DNA of 64,000 nt from Phreatobacter cathodiphilus (GTDB lineage Bacteria; Pseudomonadota; Alphaproteobacteria; Rhizobiales; Phreatobacteraceae): the NCBI RefSeq assembly GCF_003008515.1, contig NZ_CP027668.1, forward strand, positions 1,728,001-1,792,000, given 5' to 3'. This document shows positions 47,193 to 57,790 of the stretch, one piece after another. Positions within the stretch are counted from its first letter, which is position 1. Every line of letters begins with the position of its first letter. A model generated the notes under the pieces. It made no database searches and was not told where the DNA came from. It worked only from the letters and a program-made list of their open reading frames with translations. Made by a program: the position numbers and the translations under genes.

Positions 47193-47221
47193 TTGACACC
47201 CACGGAGCCCGACCGCATAAT
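47193..47221 (+). promoter_or_regulatory. Consensus-like promoter of the MOSC/reductase genes
   Basis: TTGACA (47193-47198) and CATAAT (47216-47221) are exactly 17 bases apart, the best sigma70-type match in the window. Transcription should start near 47228, right before the 14-bp element at 47230. Confidence 0.72.
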
Positions 47222-47229
47222 TGCCCCTT

Positions 47230-47243
47230 GGACAACAAGTTGC
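47230..47243. promoter_or_regulatory. Shared 14-bp element, copy 1 (likely XRE repressor operator)
   Basis: GGACAACAAGTTGC sits just downstream of the expected transcription start of the MOSC gene, a typical roadblock position. Its core CAAC-AA-GTTG is a dyad. The same sequence with one change is found at 49359-49372 in the promoter of the TRAP receptor and next to the XRE regulator gene. Confidence 0.6.
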
Positions 47244-47250
47244 ATGGATC

Positions 47251-47715
47251 ATGTGGGCTGGAAAAGTCGAACATCTCCACAGTTGCCCACGGGCCTTCCT
47301 GCCCATGGGCGCCTTCGAGGCCCTGACCCTGATCAAGGGCGAGGGAATCGAGGGTGATCGTTACCGCGCCGGCACCGGATTCTATTCCGACCGTCCCGAG
47401 GAAGGCCGGCAGGTCACGCTCTTCGAGATCGAGACCCTGGTGGCGCTGGAGCGCGACTACGGAATCCGCATGGCGCCGGCCGATCACCGCCGCAACATCA
47501 CGACCCGCGGCGCGCCCCTCAACCACCTCGTCGGCAAGGTCTTCCGGGTCGGCGACGTGGTGCTGGAGGGTACCCGGCTCAGCACGCCCTGCCGCCACAT
47601 CGAGCAGATCACCGGCCAGGAGGTCTTCACCCCGATGCTGCATCGCTCGGGCCTTCACGCCCGCATCCTGACCGGCGGGGTCGTGCGGGTCGGCGACGTG
47701 ATGACGGGCGAGTGA
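47251..47715 (+). CDS. MOSC-domain protein (molybdenum cofactor, YiiM-like)
   Basis: This 154-residue protein is one MOSC domain. The conserved cysteine that ligands the molybdenum cofactor is C114 in STPCRHIEQ, and RRNITTRGAPLNHLVGKVFRVGDVVLEG is the family core. Members such as YiiM and YcbX reduce N-hydroxylated bases, with electrons supplied by a flavin/iron-sulfur partner. Here a reductase gene starts three bases after the stop, which makes a self-contained pair. The start ATG at 47251 follows the operator and gives the family length. Confidence 0.85.
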   Translation: MWAGKVEHLHSCPRAFLPMGAFEALTLIKGEGIEGDRYRAGTGFYSDRPEEGRQVTLFEIETLVALERDYGIRMAPADHRRNITTRGAPLNHLVGKVFRVGDVVLEGTRLSTPCRHIEQITGQEVFTPMLHRSGLHARILTGGVVRVGDVMTGE

Positions 47716-47717
47716 CC

Positions 47718-48674
47718 ATGGTCCGCCCCAATCATCGGGTGACCACGGTCGTCACCGACATCACGCGCGAAAACAGCGCCATCTCCACCTTCACGCTGAT
47801 GGACCCCGACGGCTGGCCGCTGCCGCCCTTCGAGGCGGGAGCCCATATCGACGTCCACCTGCCCGGCGGACCCGTCCGCCAATATTCCCTCTGCGGTGAT
47901 CCTGCCGACGGGGTGCGCTACCGCCTGGCTGTGCAGCGGGAGGCCGGCGGTCGCGGCGGCTCGGCCCTCATGCACGATGCGATCCGGACCGGCGACAGGC
48001 TGCTCGTGTCGCTGCCGCGCAACCACTTCCCCCTCGCCGCCTCCGGCCGACGCCACGTCCTCATCGGCGGCGGCATCGGCCTGACCCCGCTCATGGCCAT
48101 GGTGGAAACCCTGCGCCGGCGTGGAGAGGCGTTCGAGCTGCACGCCTGCATCAGGTCGCGGGCGGACATGCCCTTCCGCGACTGGCTGGAGACGCTCGAG
48201 CGCCGAGGGCTCGCCCATATCCATGCGAGCCGCGATGGCGCCGGCAACCGCATCGACCTCGCCGGCCTGCTGAGAAGCCTGCCCGACGACACCCATGTCT
48301 ATTGCTGCGGTCCAGCGAGGATGATCGAGGCCGTGGTCGCGGCGGGCGCCGGCCGACCGGAGGACACGGTCCACGTCGAGCATTTCGGCAGCGCTCGCAT
48401 TCCGCCCGGCGGCGAGGCCTTCACCGTCGAGCTCGCCCGGTCGAAGCGAAGCGTCCCCGTCGCCGCCGGCATGACCATCGTCGAGGCGCTGCGCGAGGCA
48501 GGCGTCGAGATCGACGCCTCCTGCGAGGGCGGCGCCTGCCTGACCTGCAAGACCCGCTATCTCGAGGGCGTCCCCATCCACCGGGACCTCGTGATGAAGC
48601 CGGCGGAACGGCTGACGTACATGACGCCCTGCGTCTCCGGCTGCGCCAGCGAGCGGCTGGTCCTCGACCTCTGA
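47718..48674 (+). CDS. Phthalate-dioxygenase-reductase-like flavin/2Fe-2S reductase
   Basis: This 318-residue protein has three domains: flavin binding (about 1-105, RQYSLCG), NAD binding (about 110-220, LIGGGIGLTPLMAM and VYCCGPARM) and a C-terminal plant-type ferredoxin domain with cysteines C269-X4-C274-X2-C277-X27-C305. It takes electrons from NAD(P)H and hands them to an oxygenase or, here, probably to the MOSC protein upstream, since no oxygenase gene is nearby. ATG 47718 was chosen; a GTG at 47712 that overlaps the previous stop is possible. Confidence 0.87.
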   Translation: MVRPNHRVTTVVTDITRENSAISTFTLMDPDGWPLPPFEAGAHIDVHLPGGPVRQYSLCGDPADGVRYRLAVQREAGGRGGSALMHDAIRTGDRLLVSLPRNHFPLAASGRRHVLIGGGIGLTPLMAMVETLRRRGEAFELHACIRSRADMPFRDWLETLERRGLAHIHASRDGAGNRIDLAGLLRSLPDDTHVYCCGPARMIEAVVAAGAGRPEDTVHVEHFGSARIPPGGEAFTVELARSKRSVPVAAGMTIVEALREAGVEIDASCEGGACLTCKTRYLEGVPIHRDLVMKPAERLTYMTPCVSGCASERLVLDL

Positions 48675-48677
48675 GGC

Positions 48678-49331
48678 CTAGCGCTCTTTCGCCACGCCGT
48701 CCCGCGCGATGACGATGAGGACCTCGGAGCGCGCGGGGCCGAGGCGCCGCAGCCGGTGCTTGAGGTGGCCCTCGAAGCGCATGCTGTCGCCCGCCTCCAG
48801 GACGATCGTATGGTCGGCGAAGGCCACCTCGACCATGCCGTTGAGCACATAGATCATCTCGTCGCCGGCATGTTCGCCGATGTCGCGGTCGCCGTGGTCC
48901 CCCGGCTCCATGACGAAGGCGGAGAGATGATGCTGCCCGTCATCCTGGAACAGGGCCTGGTAGGCATGCTCGTCGCCCCCGGCACCATAGGGCATGCGCT
49001 CCGCCTGCCGGACCACGGTGATCGCCGAGCGCTCCACCGTGTCGCCGAAGAGCCGGCTGAGGTCCACCGCGAAGGCGTCCGCGAGCTTCATCAGCGTGGT
49101 GATCGACGGCGTCTTTGCCTGGCGTTCCAGCCGCGACAGATAGCCCTTGTCGAGGCCGGTGGCGGCCGCCAGCTGGTCGAGCGTCATGCCGGCGCGGGTG
49201 CGCAGCGAACGGATCCGCGCCGCGATGCCCTGAATGCGTGCGGCGGTGTCCTGCCGGTCCGTCGCACGGGCCGAGGCGGGGACGTCGGTCGCCGTCGCGC
49301 TCCCCGGCTTTTTCTTCGCTGTCGATGCCAC
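48678..49331 (-). CDS. XRE-family regulator with C-terminal cupin
   Basis: The protein has 217 residues. A basic, low-complexity N-terminus is followed by the helix-turn-helix IRSLRTRAGMTLDQLAAATGLDKGYLSRLERQAKTPS and a cupin domain (EHAGDEMIYVLNGMVEVAF). Such proteins often sense a small ligand in the cupin. The GTG at 49331 is preferred; a TTG at 49367 would place the start inside the shared 14-bp element. It lies between the MOSC/reductase pair (tail to tail) and the TRAP receptor (divergent), and is the likely repressor of both. Confidence 0.85.
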   Translation of the reverse strand: MASTAKKKPGSATATDVPASARATDRQDTAARIQGIAARIRSLRTRAGMTLDQLAAATGLDKGYLSRLERQAKTPSITTLMKLADAFAVDLSRLFGDTVERSAITVVRQAERMPYGAGGDEHAYQALFQDDGQHHLSAFVMEPGDHGDRDIGEHAGDEMIYVLNGMVEVAFADHTIVLEAGDSMRFEGHLKHRLRRLGPARSEVLIVIARDGVAKER

Positions 49332-49349
49332 GGTTTTCGGATGCCCCTG

Positions 49350-49379
49350 TTGCTCTCTGGACAACAATTTGCCTACACT
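49350..49379 (+). promoter_or_regulatory. Candidate promoter of the TRAP receptor gene
   Basis: TTGCTC (49350-49355) and TACACT (49374-49379) are 18 bases apart, with the 14-bp element copy 2 filling the spacer. The match is moderate; the overlap with the repeated element is the main support. Confidence 0.42.
49359..49372. promoter_or_regulatory. Shared 14-bp element, copy 2
   Basis: GGACAACAATTTGC differs from copy 1 (47230-47243) at one base. It lies between the -35 and -10 of the receptor promoter and 28 bases from the GTG of the divergent XRE gene, so it could give both repression of the receptor and autoregulation. Confidence 0.6.
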
Positions 49380-49404
49380 CGTCTACCAGACTGAGGAGGG
49401 CTTA

Positions 49405-50484
49405 ATGAAGCGTCGCGACATGCTCAAGTTCGGAGTTGCCGGAGGAGCCGCGGCGGTCGCCGCTCCGGCACTCGCCCAAAGCCAGCCGACCATCCGCTGG
49501 CGCATGCAGTCGAGTTTCCCGAAGTCCCTCGACACGGTCTTCGGCGGCGCCACGACCATCGCCCAGAAGGTCTCGAAACTCACCGACGGCAAGTTCGAGA
49601 TCCAGGTCTTCTCGGCCGGCGAGATCGTCGGCCCTCTCCAGGTCCTCGACGCGGTGCAGATCGGCACGATCGAGGCCGGCCACACCGCCGGCTTCTACTA
49701 TATCGGCAAGATGCCGGCCCTCGTCTTCGACACCGGCGTGCCCTTCGGCATGACGCCGCGCCAGCACAATGCCTGGATGCGCTATGGCGGCGGGCTGGAC
49801 CTGATGCGTGACCTCTACAAGCAGTTCAACGTCGTCCAGATCCCCTGCGGCAATACGGGCGCGCAGATGGGCGGCTGGTTCCGCAAGGAGATCAAGACCG
49901 TCGACGACCTGAAGGGCCTGCGCATGCGCGCCGCCGGCTTCCTCGGCTCCGTCTTCTCCAAGCTCGGCGTCGTCGTCCAGCAGATTCCCGCTGGCGACGT
50001 CTATCCGGCGCTGGAGCGCGGCACGCTCGACGCCGTCGAGTGGGTCGGTCCCTATGACGACGAGAAGCTCGGTCTCCACAAGGTCGCCAACAACTACTAC
50101 GCCCCCGGGGTCATGGAGCTCGGCGCCTCTCTCTGCTTCATCGGCAACGAGGCGAAGATGCGCGAACTGCCGGCGCAATATCGCGAGGCGCTGGAGGCCG
50201 CCTGTGCCGAGGCCAATCTCGACATGCTGGCCAAGTACGACGCCTACAACATCCAGGCGCTGCGCCGGCTTCTGGCCGCCAACGTCCAGCTGCGCTTCTG
50301 GTCGAACGACATCATGAAGGCGCTGCAGACGGCGACGGCCGAGGCGATGCAGGACTTCGCGGCGAAGGACGCCACCTTCGCCAAGGTGCATCAGCACTGG
50401 AAGGCCTTCCGCGACGATCAGGTGCTGTGGAGCGCGGTGAACGACGGCGCGGCAGAGCGCTTCCTCGCGGCCAATCGCGGCTGA
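49405..50484 (+). CDS. TRAP transporter substrate-binding protein (DctP/TakP type)
   Basis: The protein has 359 residues, preceded by a strong GAGGAGGG. It has a signal peptide (RRDMLKFGVAGGAAAVAAPALAQ). The sequence PTIRWRMQSSFPKSLDTVFGGA and the segment DAVEWVGPYDDEKLGL are typical of the TakP/monocarboxylate branch. No DctQ or DctM membrane genes are adjacent, so it depends on components encoded elsewhere. Its promoter carries the XRE element, linking uptake to the MOSC/reductase pair. Confidence 0.9.
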   Translation: MKRRDMLKFGVAGGAAAVAAPALAQSQPTIRWRMQSSFPKSLDTVFGGATTIAQKVSKLTDGKFEIQVFSAGEIVGPLQVLDAVQIGTIEAGHTAGFYYIGKMPALVFDTGVPFGMTPRQHNAWMRYGGGLDLMRDLYKQFNVVQIPCGNTGAQMGGWFRKEIKTVDDLKGLRMRAAGFLGSVFSKLGVVVQQIPAGDVYPALERGTLDAVEWVGPYDDEKLGLHKVANNYYAPGVMELGASLCFIGNEAKMRELPAQYREALEAACAEANLDMLAKYDAYNIQALRRLLAANVQLRFWSNDIMKALQTATAEAMQDFAAKDATFAKVHQHWKAFRDDQVLWSAVNDGAAERFLAANRG

Positions 50485-50494
50485 GCGCCCGCGC

Positions 50495-51112
50495 ATGATC
50501 CGTCTTCACGACCATCCCCTGTCGGGGAACGGCCACAAGGTCCGCATGCTCCTGTCCATGCTGGGGCTCGCCCATGAGCACGTCTTCCGGGACGTGCCCA
50601 GCGGCCGCCCGCAGCAGGAGGAGGAATTCGCGGCACTCAATCCCCTCCTGCAGATTCCGATCCTCGAGGACGGCGGGACGGTGATCTGGGACAGCCAGGC
50701 CATCCTGGTCTATCTCGCCCGACGCTACGGGCCGGACTGGTTTCCACTGGAACCGGAGCCGGCCGCGCGCGTCGTGCAGTGGCTGTCCTTCGCCACCAAC
50801 GAGATCAACAACAGCCTCCAGCAGGCGCGACTCTATTACCTGCTCGGCGAGCACATCGACATCGAACTGATGACGCGCCGGGGCCTGCGCGTCCTCACCA
50901 TCCTCGACCGCGAACTGGCGGGGCGCTCCTGGCTGGCGGCCGACCGGGCGACCATCGCCGACCTCGCCTGCTACCCCTATGTCGGGCTCTCCCGACAGGG
51001 AAAGCTGCCGCTCGACGACTTCCGCCATGTCATCGACTGGATGGAACGGATCGAAGCCATGCCCGGCTATGTCCCCATGCCCGGGCTGCTCGGCACGCCG
51101 CCGATTCCCTGA
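50495..51112 (+). CDS. Glutathione S-transferase family protein
   Basis: The protein has 205 residues: thioredoxin-like N-domain (HDHPLSGNGHKVRMLLSMLGL, NPLLQIPILEDGG with cis-Pro, and WDSQAILVYLARRYG) and all-helical C-domain (RATIADLACYPYV). It is ten bases after the TRAP receptor gene and so probably in its transcript. It may detoxify an electrophile linked to the imported compound. Confidence 0.86.
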   Translation: MIRLHDHPLSGNGHKVRMLLSMLGLAHEHVFRDVPSGRPQQEEEFAALNPLLQIPILEDGGTVIWDSQAILVYLARRYGPDWFPLEPEPAARVVQWLSFATNEINNSLQQARLYYLLGEHIDIELMTRRGLRVLTILDRELAGRSWLAADRATIADLACYPYVGLSRQGKLPLDDFRHVIDWMERIEAMPGYVPMPGLLGTPPIP

Positions 51113-51172: not shown

Positions 51173-53383
51173 TCAGACGGGCGGCAATCGATCGAGATAC
51201 TTGTCCATGGTGATCGGATAGTCGCGCACCCGCACGCCCGTGGCGTTGTAGAGCGCGTTGGCGACCGCGGCGCCGACCCCGCAGAGGCCGAGTTCGCCGA
51301 CGCCCTTGGCCTTCATCGGATTGGCCTTGTCGTCGGCCTCGTCGAGGAACACCACGTCCTGATGGGGAATGTCGGCATGGACCGGCACCTCGTAACCCGC
51401 GAGGTCGTGATTGACGAAGAACCCGTACCGCGTGTCCACGACCAGCTCTTCCATCAGGGCGCCGCCGACCCCCATCGTCATGGCGCCGATCACCTGGCTG
51501 CGCGCCGACACGGGATTGAGGATGCGGCCGGCGGCGCAGACCGCCAGCATGCGCCGGACGCGGGCGACGCCCGTATAGGCATCGACGCCGACCTCGACGA
51601 AATGGGCCCCGAAGGTCGAGAGCTGGTGGGTCTCGTCGAGGTCGCCGTATTCGATGCGATCCTCGCCCGAGAGGTCACCGCCGGCGGCCGCCTCGGCGAG
51701 CGCCGCCGACCGGTTGCCGCTGGTGACGCGGCCACCCGCGAACACCGCCTCCGCCGAGTTGAAGCCGAGCGCCTGCGCGACCGCCTCCCGCAGCTTCACG
51801 CAGGCCGCATAGACGCCGGAGGTGGCGTTGGCCGCGCCGAACTGCCCGCCCGAGCCGGCGGAGACCGGATAGGCGGAATCGCCGAGACGCACGGTGACGG
51901 CCCCCACGGGAACGCCCATCATCTCGGCGGCCGTCTGGGCGAGGATCGTGTAGCTGCCGGTGCCGATGTCGGTCATGTCGGTCTCGACCACCACGCCGCC
52001 GCCCCGGGTGAGCCTCACGCGCGCGCCCGATTTCATGGCGATGTGGTTGCGGAAGGCCGCGGCGACGCCCATTCCCACGAGCCATCGCCCCTCGCGCACC
52101 GAGGCCGGTTGCGGCACGCGCCGCCACCAGCCGAAGCGCCGGGCGCCGTCCTCGAGACAGCGGACGAGCTGCCGCTGCGAGAAAGGCCGCTCCGGCTTCT
52201 CGGGGTCCACCTGTGTGTCGTTGGCGATGCGGAAGGCCACCGGGTCCATGCCGAGCTTCTCGGCCATCTCGTCGACGGCGATTTCGAGGGCCATCATGCC
52301 CGGCGCCTCGCCCGGTGCGCGCATCGAATTGCCCTCCGGCAGGTCGAGGATGGCCAGCCGCAGCGCCGTCAGACGGTTGGCCCCGGCATAGAGCAGCCGC
52401 GTCTGGCTCACCGCCGCCTCGGGACCACCGTCCGGCTGGTCGCCCGAGCCGCTTTCATGGGCGATGGCGACGATCCGGCCATTCGGCTCGCAACCGATCC
52501 GGATGCGCTGGCGGGTGGCGGGACGGTGTGTCGTGTTGTTGGGGATGAGTGGCCGCGGCATGGTGACCTTCACCGGACGGCCCGCGGCCTTTGCGCCCAG
52601 CGCCGCCATCACCGCATCCGCCCTGAGAAAAAGCTTGCCGCCGAAACCGCCGCCCACATAGGGCGACCGGAAGCGGATCTTCTCCTTCGGCATTTTCAAC
52701 GTGGCCGCGAGATCGCGCCGCCCCCATGCCACCATCTGGCTCGACGTCCAGAGGGCCAGCTCGTCCCCGTCCCAGGAGGCGATGGAAGCGAAGGGCTCCA
52801 TCATCGCGTGGCTCTGGTCGGGCGTGGCGTATTGCGCGTCGAGCGTGACGGCCGCAGCCGCGAAGGCCTCCTCGAAGCGGCCGACGCGCTGCTCCTCGTC
52901 GGCCGGCGCGGCGTTGGCATCGGTGCAGGGCTCGGCCTCGGCGAGTGCCTCGGCGAGGTCGAAGTGCCCCTCGTCGGTGGCATAGTCCACCCGGACGAGC
53001 CGGGCGGCGTGTCGCGCCTCTTCAAACGTCTCGGCCACCACCACGGCGATCGCCTGATGGTAGTGGTCGATCTCGGGCCCGCCCATCAGCTTGACGGTAT
53101 TGGTCTTCCCCTTGCCGAGCTCGCCCGCCTCGCCGGCCGATACGACTGCGAGCACGCCCGGCGCGGCGCGGGCCGCGTCGAGATCGATCCGCAGGATCCG
53201 GCCCTTGGCGATGGTGGCGGGCACGATCTCGCCATAGGCGAGGTCGTCGAGGCCCTCATGGTGTTCGGCGGCATAGGGCGCGCGGCCCGTCACCTTCAGG
53301 GGGCCTTCGACGCGGGTGTGCGGCCGGCCCACCACCGTCATGGCGTCGATCGGATTGTGGGTGGCGGGCTCCGAGAACTTCAT
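51173..53383 (-). CDS. paoC: Molybdopterin-binding subunit of a PaoC-type aldehyde oxidoreductase (set 1)
   Basis: The protein has 736 residues, the molybdenum cofactor subunit of the xanthine oxidase family. Cofactor segments are [29 protein letters not shown] and [14 protein letters not shown]. The general-base glutamate is E697 in [10 protein letters not shown]. The gene is the last of the long leftward operon and overlaps the FAD subunit gene by four bases. Together with the next two genes it makes an alpha-beta-gamma enzyme like E. coli PaoABC, which oxidises aromatic aldehydes. Substrate here is unproven. Confidence 0.87.
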
Positions 53384-54336
53384 GCGTCACCCCTGGTCTG
53401 CGCGATGATGGAAGCCAGTGCCCGGGTCGCGAGCGGGATCTTGAAGGCGTTCTCCGCGGTGGGCGTCGCTCCGGCGAAGGCGCGCGCCGTCACCGCTGCG
53501 GCGCCTTGCGGCAGCAGGGCCTCGGCCTCTTCGACCCGCCAGGGTTTCGACGCGACGCCGCCGAACGCGACCCGGCCCGTGCCGTCCGGCTGGATCACCG
53601 CCGCGACCGAAACGAGGGCGAAGGCATAGGACGCGCGGTCGCGGACTTTTTCATAGGCATGGCGGCCACCGAGAGGCGGCGGCAGGACGACGGCGGTGAT
53701 GAGCTCGCCCGGTCGCAGCGTCGTTTCCACATGCGGCGTCTCGCCCCAGGCGCGGTGGAATTCGGCGATGGGGATGGCGCGGCGCTCTCCCGACCCGGCG
53801 ACGGTCTCGACCACGGCGTCGAGGAGCCGCAGGGCGATGGGCATGTCGCCGGGAAATGTCGCAATGCATGCGTCCGAGACCGCGATGACCCCGAGCTGGC
53901 GCGAGGCGCCGCCGATGGCGGCACAGCCGGCGCCCGGCCGGCGTTTGTTGCAGGGCATGGCCGTGTCGTAGAAATAGCCGCAGCGCGTCCGCTGCAGGAG
54001 GTTGCCCGCCGTGGTCGCCTTGTTGCGGAGCTGGCCGGAGGCACCGGCCAGGATGGCGCGGGCGAGGACGGCGTAATCGCGCCGAACGCGCCGGTCGGCG
54101 GCGAGCGCCGTGTTGGTGACCAGCGCACCGATGCGAAGGCCCCCCTCGCCCGTCGGCTCGATCGCATCAAGGCCGAGATCCTGGACGTCGACGAGATGGG
54201 TCGGGGTCTCGATCTCCAGCTTCATGAGATCGAGAAGATTGGTGCCCCCGGCGAGGAAGCGGGCACCGGGCCTATCCGCCACCGCCCGGGCGGCGGACAC
54301 GAGGTCGGTGGGGCGTTCGTAGGTGAAGGACCTCAT
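53380..54336 (-). CDS. paoB: FAD subunit with extra [4Fe-4S] site (PaoB-like, set 1)
   Basis: The protein has 318 residues. The FAD contacts are in [15 protein letters not shown] and [18 protein letters not shown]. It has the cysteine insertion of PaoB-type subunits (C119, C129, C138, C157: [20 protein letters not shown]), which in PaoB holds a [4Fe-4S] cluster. The C-terminal CO-dehydrogenase-like domain follows. ATG at 54336 was chosen by homology ([12 protein letters not shown]); the upstream extension overlaps the iron-sulfur gene. Confidence 0.87.
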
Positions 54337-54854
54337 CGCCCGCCCCCGGCCACCGCGGCCATGGCCTCGGCGAGGTTGGAATAGGCGCCGCACCGGCAGA
54401 TGTTGCCGCTCATCCGCTCCCGCAGCTCATCCGGCGTCGCCTCGGCCGCGCGCGACAGGTCCGATTGAACGTGGCTGGGGATGTCCGAGGCGATCTCGTC
54501 GAGAACGGCAACGGCCGAGCAGATCTGCCCCGGCGTACAATAGCCGCACTGGTAGGCGTCATGCGCCACGAAGGCGGCCTGCATGGGGTGGAGGGCCTCC
54601 GGCGTGCCCAACCCCTCGATGGTGGTGACGATGTCGCCCTCGTGCTGGAGGGCCAGGCTGAGGCAGGCATTGATGCGAGCACCATTGACGATGACCGTGC
54701 AGGCGCCGCACTGGCCGTGGTCGCAGCCCTTCTTGGTGCCGGTGAGGTGCAAGTGCTCGCGCAGGGCGTCCAGCAGGGTCGTGCGAGGATCGAGGCTCAG
54801 CTCGACCGGTGAGCCGTTCACCATGAACCGCACAGGCATCGTCGTTGAAGCCAC
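54333..54854 (-). CDS. paoA: [2Fe-2S] subunit without signal peptide (PaoA-like, set 1)
   Basis: The protein has 173 residues. The first cluster motif is [24 protein letters not shown] (C44, C49, C52, C64), split here by only conserved residues; the second is QCGYCTPGQ with ICRCGAY. From [21 protein letters not shown] on, it is very close to E. coli PaoA, but the Tat signal of PaoA is missing, so the enzyme should stay in the cytoplasm. The GTG at 54854 is favoured by GGAGG seven bases upstream; ATG at 54839 is also possible. Confidence 0.87.
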
Positions 54855-55055
54855 GTCGTCGCCTCCTCGGCGGGTCGAGAGTTGGACATCGAGCGCCGCC
54901 GGTGAGAGGCGCGAAGGACCAGCGATGAACGTGTGAAGCCGCGGAAGGTTGCGAAGATCGCACCGGCATGTCGCGCGGGCCGGCACGGACATCGGCCGCC
55001 GGACAGGGGCTGCGGGCCGGCCGGACCCGGTCTCGACGAGGGAGCCCGGCGGGCA

Positions 55056-55594: not shown

Positions 55595-57790
55595 CTAAAC
55601 CGAGACGATCCTGGCCGGGGTGATCGGCAGATCGCGAAAACGCTGGCCCGTCGCGTTGAAGGCGGCATTGGCGACGGCGGCGGCGAGGCCCGGCACGCCG
55701 ATCTCGCCGAGGCCTCGGGCGCCGAACTGATTGAGGTCCGGATCCGGGCTGTCGATGAAGATCACGTCGATCGGGGGAATGTCCGCATGCACGGGCACGG
55801 CATAGTCGGCGAGGTTGTCGCCGATGACGCGGTGGCGGGTCGGATGAAATTCGGCGGCCTCCATGAGCGCCATGCCGAGGCCGAAGATGATGCCGCCCCT
55901 GATCTGGCTCGTCGCGGTGGTCGGATTGATGATCTTGCCGCAATCGAGCGCGCTGACGACGCGGGAGACACGCAGGCGCCCGAGCCGCTCGTCGATGCGC
56001 ACCTCGACGAAATGGGCGCCGAAGGAATAGTAGCTACGGTCCTTGCGGGTCTCGGCCATGCCCGTCGACGTGCCTTCGGCCGTCAACTCGGCCAGTCCGG
56101 CGGCCTGAAGCACAGCCATCGGCGAGCGGTTCGATGCGGCGGGCAGGTCATTGTCGAGAGCCAGGCGGGACAGTGTCTCACGCAGGACCTCGCAGGCCTT
56201 CGCCGCCGCCGGCAGGAGGCTCGCCGTGGATTTGGAACGGCCGGCCGTCGGTGCCGCCGGCAGACTGGAATCGCCGAGGCGCACCGTGATGTCTTCGACG
56301 GGATGGCCGAACTGGTCCGCCACCGTCTGCGCCAGGATGGTGCGCATGCCGGTGCCGATGTCGGTGGCCGACGTCTCGACCACGAGGGGGCCCTCCCCGC
56401 TCAGGCGCAGCCTGACGGTGGCCGGCAGGGCCGGCGCGGGATAGGCGGTGGTCGCCATGCCGTAGCCGACCAGCACGTCCCCGTCGCGCATCGTGCGGGG
56501 TTCCGGCAGATCGGCCGGCCAGCCGAAAGCCGCGGCGCCCTGCGCGTAGCAGGCGAGCAGGTGGTTCGATGACCAGTCGCGGTGGTGATGGGGATCGCGG
56601 GCCGCGAAGTTGCGGCGGCGCAACTCCAGCGGATTGATGCCGAGCTGGAAGGCGAGTTCGTCCAGCGCGCATTCCACGGCGAAGGAGCCGGGCGTCTCCC
56701 CCGGCGCCCGGAAGGGCGTCGGGCTCGCAATGGCCTTGCGGGCGACGTGGTGGGTCACCTCCAGCGCCGGCGTGTCGTAGAGGAGCAGCGTATTGAGGCC
56801 GCAGGGCTCGAAGAAATGACCCCGCATGGAGGTGGGCACATAGGAGACGTGACGCAGGCCCTGCAGCCGCCCCTCGCCGTCGCTCGCCAGCTCGATCGCC
56901 TGCTCCGTCTCGGAGCGATGGCCGGAGGCGACCGCCATGTCGGCGCGCGTCAGCTGCAGGCGAACGGGCCGGCCGAGGTGGCGGGCGATATGGGCGGCGA
57001 GCGCCTGGTGCGGCCACATCTGGTTCTTGCCGCCGAAACCGCCGCCGACATAGGCCGCATCGACCCGCACCGTGTCGGGCGGGACCTCGAGCGACGCAGC
57101 GATATAGTCCCGCGCGGCCATCGCCCCTTGCGTCGAATCGTGGACGGTCACCGTGTCGCCGCCCCAGACGGCGACCGTCGCCGAGGGCTCCATCGGATGA
57201 TGCAGATGCATCGGCGTGCGGAAGGTCTCGGCGAGAGCCGCGCCCGGATGCTCCGGCCAGTCGCCGCGGCGGACCTGCATCTCCGCGGCGAAGAAGAATC
57301 CGGGTTCGAGAAAGACGTCGCTGGCGGGCACGGGATGGACGGACGACCCGGCCTGCCGCACCTGCGGCCGGATGAGGAGCGTCGCCTGCCTGGCCGCTTC
57401 GAGCGATGCGGCGGCGACGACGGCGATCCACTGGCCGGCGAAGACGATTTCCGGCCCGCCGAGGGGCCAGTAAGGCGGCGGTGGGAGAGGTTCGACGGCG
57501 GCCAGGGCGGTGCGCCCCAGCGCCTCGCCGCTCATCGCCATGACCTCGGGGCTTGGCCGCCAGTCCAGGAGTTCGGCCGCGTTCTCGTGGGTATAGACCG
57601 CCACGACGCCGGGAACGGCCAGGGCCTCGCCGATGTCGATGGCGGTGATCGTCCCGGCGGCGACGGGGCTGCGCACCGCGAAAGCATAGAGCTGGCCATC
57701 GGGCCTGCGATCGGCGGCATAGGCCGCCCGGCCCGTCACCTTGTCGACGCCGTCGATGCGACTGCGGGGCGTGCCGATCTGCTTCAGCAT
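55595..57790 (-). CDS. Molybdopterin-binding subunit of xanthine-oxidase-family enzyme (set 2)
   Basis: The protein has 731 residues and is a paralogue of the subunit at 51173. Cofactor segments are GGGFGGKNQMWPHQALAA, FRAPGETPGSFAVE and the glutamate E696 in RGLGEIGVPG. The middle differs clearly from set 1 and lacks long stretches of identity, so the two are not a recent duplication. It overlaps the FAD gene upstream by seven bases. Confidence 0.86.
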   Translation of the reverse strand: MLKQIGTPRSRIDGVDKVTGRAAYAADRRPDGQLYAFAVRSPVAAGTITAIDIGEALAVPGVVAVYTHENAAELLDWRPSPEVMAMSGEALGRTALAAVEPLPPPPYWPLGGPEIVFAGQWIAVVAAASLEAARQATLLIRPQVRQAGSSVHPVPASDVFLEPGFFFAAEMQVRRGDWPEHPGAALAETFRTPMHLHHPMEPSATVAVWGGDTVTVHDSTQGAMAARDYIAASLEVPPDTVRVDAAYVGGGFGGKNQMWPHQALAAHIARHLGRPVRLQLTRADMAVASGHRSETEQAIELASDGEGRLQGLRHVSYVPTSMRGHFFEPCGLNTLLLYDTPALEVTHHVARKAIASPTPFRAPGETPGSFAVECALDELAFQLGINPLELRRRNFAARDPHHHRDWSSNHLLACYAQGAAAFGWPADLPEPRTMRDGDVLVGYGMATTAYPAPALPATVRLRLSGEGPLVVETSATDIGTGMRTILAQTVADQFGHPVEDITVRLGDSSLPAAPTAGRSKSTASLLPAAAKACEVLRETLSRLALDNDLPAASNRSPMAVLQAAGLAELTAEGTSTGMAETRKDRSYYSFGAHFVEVRIDERLGRLRVSRVVSALDCGKIINPTTATSQIRGGIIFGLGMALMEAAEFHPTRHRVIGDNLADYAVPVHADIPPIDVIFIDSPDPDLNQFGARGLGEIGVPGLAAAVANAAFNATGQRFRDLPITPARIVSV

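Follow-up and report, generated by a model that had tools for sequence, protein, structure and literature searches.

A conserved MOSC and PDR-type reductase gene pair in Phreatobacter cathodiphilus, with a possible link to oxime metabolism

A 64,000-nucleotide stretch of the Phreatobacter cathodiphilus genome (contig NZ_CP027668.1, positions 1,728,001 to 1,792,000; hereafter the window) encodes a compact MOSC protein directly followed by a reductase of the phthalate dioxygenase reductase (PDR) type. Analysing this pair together with its neighbouring XRE-cupin regulator, TRAP receptor (DctP) and glutathione S-transferase (GST)-like protein, we found that the MOSC and PDR genes adjoin each other in nearly all related loci, and that the two proteins very probably form a two-component N–O reductase of some kind, be its substrate an oxime, another N-hydroxy compound or a nucleobase. 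Our leading reading, which we hold with slightly less than even confidence, is an NADH-dependent molybdenum N–O reductase under substrate control that would act likeliest on a 2-oxo-acid oxime, for example pyruvic oxime. What carries it is the gene architecture and its conservation, the operator, the type of the receptor and, in some relatives, linkage to pyruvic oxime dioxygenase (POD). On this view, a MOSC N-reductase comes with a regulon and with an electron chain of two genes that belongs to it alone; the connection to oxime metabolism is specific but unproven. The 2-oxo-acid oximes are the most specific clue to its substrate and go beyond an initial annotation of this DNA, which had proposed an inducible system for carboxylate uptake and N–O reduction.

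In the proposed mechanism, NADH would reduce the flavin of the PDR-type protein, whose 2Fe-2S domain would hand the electrons to a molybdenum cofactor (Moco) held by Cys114 of the MOSC protein; both the Moco loading and this electron path are steps that we infer. The molybdenum centre would then take the oxygen off an N-hydroxylated carboxylate, most likely a 2-oxo-acid oxime, and the resulting 2-imino acid would hydrolyse to a 2-oxo acid and ammonium, possibly helped by RidA in some relatives. The TakP-type receptor would capture a 2-oxo-acid-like compound, and the XRE-cupin protein would bind that compound or a product and then let go of its operator. Here, the ligand of the regulator, and repression rather than activation, are presumed; the N–O chemistry is what the MOSC family would predict, and the oxime is suggested by gene context.

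A MOSC protein with an adjacent, probable electron donor

The MOSC protein scored 44.9 bits against PF03473 (cut-off 22.7), and Cys114 was invariant in alignments of 12 and of 30 sequences, the window's own included. This bears out a stand-alone MOSC protein with the cofactor cysteine, C114 being the putative molybdenum-binding residue by analogy with the family. Its profile found no match among the sequences of solved structures; a fold search with the predicted model (pLDDT 86.9) did, returning YuaD (1oru) at Z 17.4 over 151 residues with a root mean square deviation of 2.4, followed by YiiM and human mARC1, both at Z 16.1, with non-MOSC folds from 8.2 down. By length and fold, the protein belongs with the compact, single-domain, prokaryotic MOSC proteins of the YuaD kind. 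The C-terminal 3-alpha bundle of the YiiM subfamily is missing from the model, in which the chain ends on a strand of the MOSC fold. Features of the YcbX subfamily are likewise missing: PF03473 was the sole domain found, with no MOSC_N, and the ferredoxin domain lies in a separate gene.

All MOSC proteins studied in vitro are described as having N-reductive activity in assays, and the substrates of mARC include oximes, N-hydroxyguanidines, hydroxamic acids and hydroxylamines (PMC10637980). Common to mARC, YcbX, YiiM and the window pair are the MOSC fold, the Moco cysteine and the need for a flavin and an Fe–S or cytochrome b5 donor. Unlike those proteins, the window MOSC is compact and stand-alone, has its donor encoded by a separate adjacent PDR-type gene, and is operonic with an uptake gene and its own regulator. 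YiiM-like fusions of the form MOSC–3alpha–flavin–[2Fe-2S] also exist, such as UniProt Q89NR8 (PMC10637980). Set beside them by their description only, the window differs in having two genes, no 3-alpha domain and an XRE-cupin regulon; these fusions combine the same activities in one chain, and MOSC plus PDR resembles such a protein split over two genes.

The PDR-type protein matched phthalate dioxygenase reductase (2pia) by family profile at an E value of 8.8e-90 and scored a little higher still against the PDR-type domains found in two P450 fusions. It has the FNR-like flavin and NAD domains and the C-terminal 2Fe-2S domain of the PDR/VanB type, and annotated relatives are named PDR/VanB family oxidoreductase. 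The cluster cysteines C269, C274, C277 and C305 (CX4CX2C...C) were invariant in 12 sequences, which, together with its domain matches (Table 1), substantiates an intact 2Fe-2S reductase behind MOSC. It is the only PDR-type match in its own genome.

We next consider conservation. The MOSC subfamily (E value at or below 1e-39) was present in 13 of 199 genomes sampled from the order, its own included, and PDR adjoined it in all 13; when samples of the phylum and class were added, for which 1.5 kb flanks were available, this held for 16 of 20 genomes. Among the best 80 of 389 relatives in genome_contigs, PDR lay directly 3' of MOSC in 77, the exceptions being L052, where PDR is a few kb away and divergent, and L084 and L106, which are without PDR. 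All loci together, namely 12 from the order sample, these 80, and 13 selected from among 134 plasmid records (without dereplication, L031 and L044 representing identical DNA), give 102 of 105 with PDR directly downstream of MOSC. The adjacency is therefore not unique to this genome. Of the 105 loci, 92 have an XRE homologue no more than 6 kb from MOSC. Across 28 loci dereplicated from 91, distance matrices correlated at r 0.77 for MOSC–PDR, 0.33 for MOSC–XRE and 0.54 for PDR–XRE, with shared ancestry adding to all three values.

Transporters varied far more. At least one of the queried types (MHS-type MFS, TRAP, Tct or ABC) was found within 6 kb in 94 of the 105 loci, or in 89 without the amino-acid ABC query, an ATPase that also picks up other ABC ATPases. 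Given the stronger MOSC–PDR correlation, the frequency of XRE and these varied transporters, the core is MOSC, PDR and XRE-cupin, with an exchangeable transporter; TRAP and GST are variable accessories. Very different transporters, together with additions of RidA, POD, gamma-lyase or acyl-CoA dehydrogenase and CoA-transferase, mark MOSC–PDR as a portable module that is not tied to a fixed TRAP system. For the inducible system as originally proposed, conservation and context support the dedicated donor, the regulated operon, carboxylate uptake and N–O reduction; they speak against one fixed TRAP system, and the reaction is one that we still infer.

A sample of cattle-farm sediment yielded an Escherichia coli plasmid with MHS, MOSC, PDR and XRE in a row (L124, 7638–11117), which suggests horizontal movement.

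The pair was not described among the matches listed in our literature searches, whose coverage left subscription journals largely aside. The word MOSC was absent from the papers checked on POD or Alcaligenes nitrification, including PMC8629993 and PMC11841055, and in the literature searched 'oxime reductase' led to one paper, the available part of which concerns an Old Yellow Enzyme.

Operator, receptor and a possible link to 2-oxo-acid oximes

The operator pattern TGGACAACAADTTGC has two perfect matches in the 4.49 Mb genome, one ahead of MOSC and one between XRE-cupin and DctP (Table 1), as expected for the shared operator of the initial annotation. No site had one mismatch and six had two; since the same pattern written backwards matched 12 sites with two mismatches or fewer, the six are noise. 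The operator resembles the palindrome RCAACAWGTTGY. Locus DNA totalling 1.69 Mb contained 19 copies of this palindrome (one genome, L031 = L044, counted double), compared with 0.75 in mononucleotide shuffles. Seventeen of these 19 copies lay 12–144 bp upstream of the nearest MOSC, DctP, MHS or XRE start, in Phreatobacter, Roseomonas and relatives, Oceanicella, Chachezhania, Methylobacterium, Sulfitobacter, Bosea and others. Most Bradyrhizobium loci are without it; among the matches listed, that clade has another conserved intergenic pattern.

The DctP receptor matched TakP (2hzk) at an E value of 1.8e-108. Its residues Y98, Q154, R175, E212, W213 and E238 correspond to Tyr100, Gln156, Arg177, Glu214, Trp215 and Glu240 of TakP (six of six), the ligand and cation residues that hold Na+-pyruvate (PMC1839085). 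These positions were taken by hand from a printed alignment. In a subsequent comparison, 11 of 13 aligned linked receptors retained Gln, Arg, Glu and Glu, the exceptions, L033 and L128, both lying beside RidA. Judged by these residues, the window receptor is specifically of the 2-oxo-acid (TakP) type. TakP (2hzk/2hzl) works with TakQM; the window DctP, by contrast, is an orphan receptor beside MOSC–PDR.

RidA is an imine hydrolase. It was found within 6 kb of MOSC in 14 of the 105 loci, its family tested on one representative. In six loci, a class II aldolase-like homologue of POD lay within 6 kb, 45–77% identical to a Pusillimonas query that is itself among the six. Against solved POD structures, whose PDB codes are confirmed in PMC11841055, the protein from Castellaniella (L082) scored E values of 3.4e-116 or better and that from Pusillimonas 2e-74. 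For a wider view, 48 of the 80 genome_contigs loci were picked for diversity, with many Bradyrhizobium dropped, and the genomes of 47 were searchable. POD (E value 1.7e-72 or better) was present in 11 of these 47, and in 8 of the 11 it lay within 14 kb of MOSC, among them Bradyrhizobium WSM3983, from which one of the solved PODs comes; in G927, G932 and G964 it was on another contig or far from MOSC. Weaker class II aldolase matches, at 33–35% identity, turned up in five more genomes and were not counted as POD.

Accessory genes point the same way. In Alcaligenes faecalis, the pod and podh operons include genes for an MHS transporter, an HCCA isomerase, TctC and GST (PMC8629993), accessories that pod/podh operons (see also PMC11841055) have in common with MOSC–PDR loci: within 6 kb of MOSC, MHS was found in 57 of the 105 loci, TctC in 20, GST in 15 and HCCA in 6. 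Genes of these kinds lay near POD in five of six fetched POD regions (L193, L194, L195, L196 and L198), and the sixth, L197, has MOSC–PDR genes and TctC nearby. POD, physically linked to MOSC–PDR in several relatives, oxidises pyruvic oxime to nitrite and pyruvate; MOSC–PDR would reduce the same compound. A bolder extension, which we regard as possible but doubtful, would make MOSC–PDR an NADH:2-oxo-acid oxime reductase for oximes derived from hydroxylamine, the reductive branch opposing POD, with one kit of transporters and GST/HCCA-type isomerases common to both; these isomerases might interconvert E and Z oximes, and rhizobial versions might collect the N–O product of a gamma-lyase acting on plant N–O amino acids.

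Several results weigh against our oxime reading. POD at an E value of 1e-45 was found in none of the 199 order genomes, including the window's own and those of the other 12 MOSC carriers, with the 47-genome search as positive control; POD thus accompanies only a minority of MOSC loci, in a comparison whose 47-genome sample includes beta- and gammaproteobacteria and is not matched in taxonomy to the order set. When the palindromic operator was sought in the six POD-adjacent loci, none was found in L055, L082, L090, L095 and L125, and the one copy in L046 lay away from any recognised start, so regulation gives no tie between MOSC–PDR and POD in five of the six. The window locus is without RidA and without the TRAP membrane genes DctQM, the nearest DctM-like gene being about 1 Mb away in the genome. 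Four of the 20 sampled MOSC genomes (G455, G496, G647 and G832) lack an adjacent PDR within their 1.5 kb flanks. The authors of work on POD want its enzymatic function re-examined (PMC8629993). Finally, relatives carry modules that are not specific for oximes, namely acyl-CoA dehydrogenase with CoA-transferase, gamma-lyase, amidase, ornithine cyclodeaminase and dehydratase; hence, the substrate may vary by clade or be another N–O compound.

Other substrates and other roles

The strongest competitor keeps the two-component N–O reductase and changes its substrate to a non-oxime N-hydroxy compound, such as a hydroxamic acid, or the hydroxyguanidine or hydroxylamine that a linked gamma-lyase would release from canavanine or canaline. 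We consider it unlikely overall, yet deserving of weight. A methionine-gamma-lyase-like pyridoxal phosphate (PLP) enzyme lies within 6 kb in 6 of the 105 loci, directly 3' of PDR in a Bosea from an Astragalus nodule, and the palindromic operator occurs about 140–160 bp upstream of a homologous lyase in two Bradyrhizobium (L198, 6453 (+); L193, 17942 (−)). Canavanine-gamma-lyase sets free hydroxyguanidine (PMC10018355), and the marine L118 locus contains an amidase. However, most loci are without a lyase; the window has none, the nearest homologue in its genome being 43% identical and located elsewhere; the TakP-type receptor gives no hint of guanidine compounds; and no paper joining 'MOSC domain' and 'canavanine' was found in the literature searched. 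The resemblance to the canavanine-gamma-lyase pathway thus consists of a gamma-lyase family enzyme of putative activity in some rhizobial relatives, alongside a known lyase with an N–OH product. This linkage would fit release of an N–O product from a canavanine- or canaline-type plant amino acid, which we offer as an idea and not as a result. As a general explanation, the full canavanine pathway was rejected, with gamma-lyase in few loci and absent from the window.

Nine loci have genes for acyl-CoA dehydrogenase, CoA-transferase and acrylyl-CoA reductase, which would suit sulfoxide or 3-sulfinopropionate-like chemistry; we consider such chemistry possible but do not favour it because many accessories handle nitrogen (RidA, the ornithine cyclodeaminase family, amidase, PLP enzymes and POD).

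Further gene sets near MOSC–PDR were seen in some relatives. In two metagenome-assembled genomes of marine Rhodobacteraceae (L118 and L061), the gene row that holds MOSC–PDR also encodes Liv-like ABC transport together with an amidase of the indoleacetamide-hydrolase type, a member of the ornithine cyclodeaminase family and a threonine/serine dehydratase-like protein; families were tested for L118, and L061 was judged by appearance. Neorhizobium alkalisoli (L056, from 9569 onward) has, by appearance, acyl-CoA carboxylase-like subunits and a mutase after MOSC–PDR, hinting at propionyl-CoA formation downstream. Mesorhizobium amorphae (L131, 1–2622) has a SidA/IucD/PvdA-family monooxygenase and a methionyl-tRNA-synthetase-like protein near MOSC–PDR, a set that we take to recall N–N bond-forming pathways.

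A housekeeping detoxifier of N-hydroxylated nucleobases, similar to YiiM or YcbX and equipped with its own donor, appears improbable. The fold common with YiiM and the known chemistry of YiiM and YcbX (PMC10637980) would suit it. By contrast, distribution is patchy, with the close MOSC form in two of seven genomes of the genus (own included), a more distant MOSC homologue is encoded elsewhere in the same genome, and both the linked uptake genes and the dedicated regulator point to an external substrate.

A further reading takes the PDR-like protein for the usual kind of reductase that serves an oxygenase, the latter being encoded elsewhere, with MOSC an unrelated neighbour. Its profile matches to phthalate dioxygenase reductase and P450 fusions, two P450 matches in the genome and a relative (L049) with a Rieske oxygenase about 3.5 kb beyond PDR argue for this. 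However, the genome has a single Rieske domain, in a 240-aa frame, which we take to be the bc1 subunit, and L049 was the only one of the 105 loci with a nearby Rieske oxygenase by motif scan (motif in the first 200 residues of frames of at least 250 aa; not exhaustive), which removes the oxygenase objection for nearly all loci. No oxygenase was found among the 10 proteins annotated by family at 44.7–54.9 kb of the window, consistent with the first description of the locus; the possibility that one would lie just outside the loci of relatives was borne out by motif in L049 alone. The pair is also kept in 102 of 105 loci, with the MOSC–PDR correlation given above. Following the Rieske scan and the Rieske and P450 searches of the genome, we rejected an oxygenase partner as the main explanation and hold this role to be very improbable; the absence of an apparent Rieske partner is an observation.

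Least probable is that MOSC serves Moco sulfuration or delivery to the neighbouring PaoABC: the paoABC genes are directly downstream, on the minus strand, and MOSC domains also occur in Moco sulfurases (PMC10637980), but homologues of Pao subunits were near just one of 92 loci (L038, at a distance of about 9 kb), one more match at 29% lay beside L158, a MOSC locus without PDR, and the PDR partner has no evident part in sulfuration; the link, not being conserved, was rejected.

Locus layout and implications

The positions and families of all five genes in the initial annotation agree with the domain searches (Table 1). The PDR frame may alternatively start at GTG 47712, giving a 4 bp overlap with MOSC in place of the 2 bp between the MOSC stop and ATG 47718. 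The promoter match ahead of MOSC was the single one in the region (shuffle mean 0.1); it resembles the consensus, and its function is a prediction.

Table 1 Features of the MOSC–PDR locus (window coordinates)
Feature	Position	Strand	Support
Predicted sigma-70-type promoter, TTGACA-17-CATAAT, ahead of MOSC	47193..47221	+	consensus match 11/12
Operator 1 (TGGACAACAAGTTGC), predicted to overlap the start of transcription	47229..47243	+	perfect genome match
MOSC protein, compact, 154 aa, Cys114	47251..47715	+	ATG start; PF03473 over cut-off
PDR/VanB-type reductase, 318 aa; flavin/NAD domains and C-terminal 2Fe-2S	47718..48674	+	Fer2 and NAD_binding_1 over cut-off
XRE-family regulator with C-terminal cupin	48678..49334	-	HTH_3 and Cupin_2 over cut-off
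Operator 2 (TGGACAACAATTTGC), between XRE-cupin and DctP	49358..49372	+	perfect genome match; imperfect palindrome copy
DctP TRAP receptor, probable TakP (2-oxo-acid) type	49405..50484	+	PF03480
GST-like protein	50495..51112	+	GST_N and GST_C over cut-off

Directly 3' of the GST-like gene lies an operon for a PaoABC-type periplasmic aldehyde oxidoreductase (51173–54992 (−)), with PaoC and PaoA models over cut-off. It is followed by a second molybdenum-hydroxylase-like large subunit (55595–57790 (−)), judged by the look of its translation. The window is thus rich in molybdenum enzymes.

The locus brings together a compact, probable N–O reductase of two genes, donor included, a receptor likely to serve in import and a defined operator, and it suggests a concrete class of substrates. 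If our oxime reading is correct, MOSC–PDR would be the reductive counterpart to POD, a key enzyme of heterotrophic nitrification, and may form the reductive arm of a nitrogen pathway about which little is known. It would then become possible to test what happens to hydroxylamine-derived oximes in bacteria of soil, roots and the sea.

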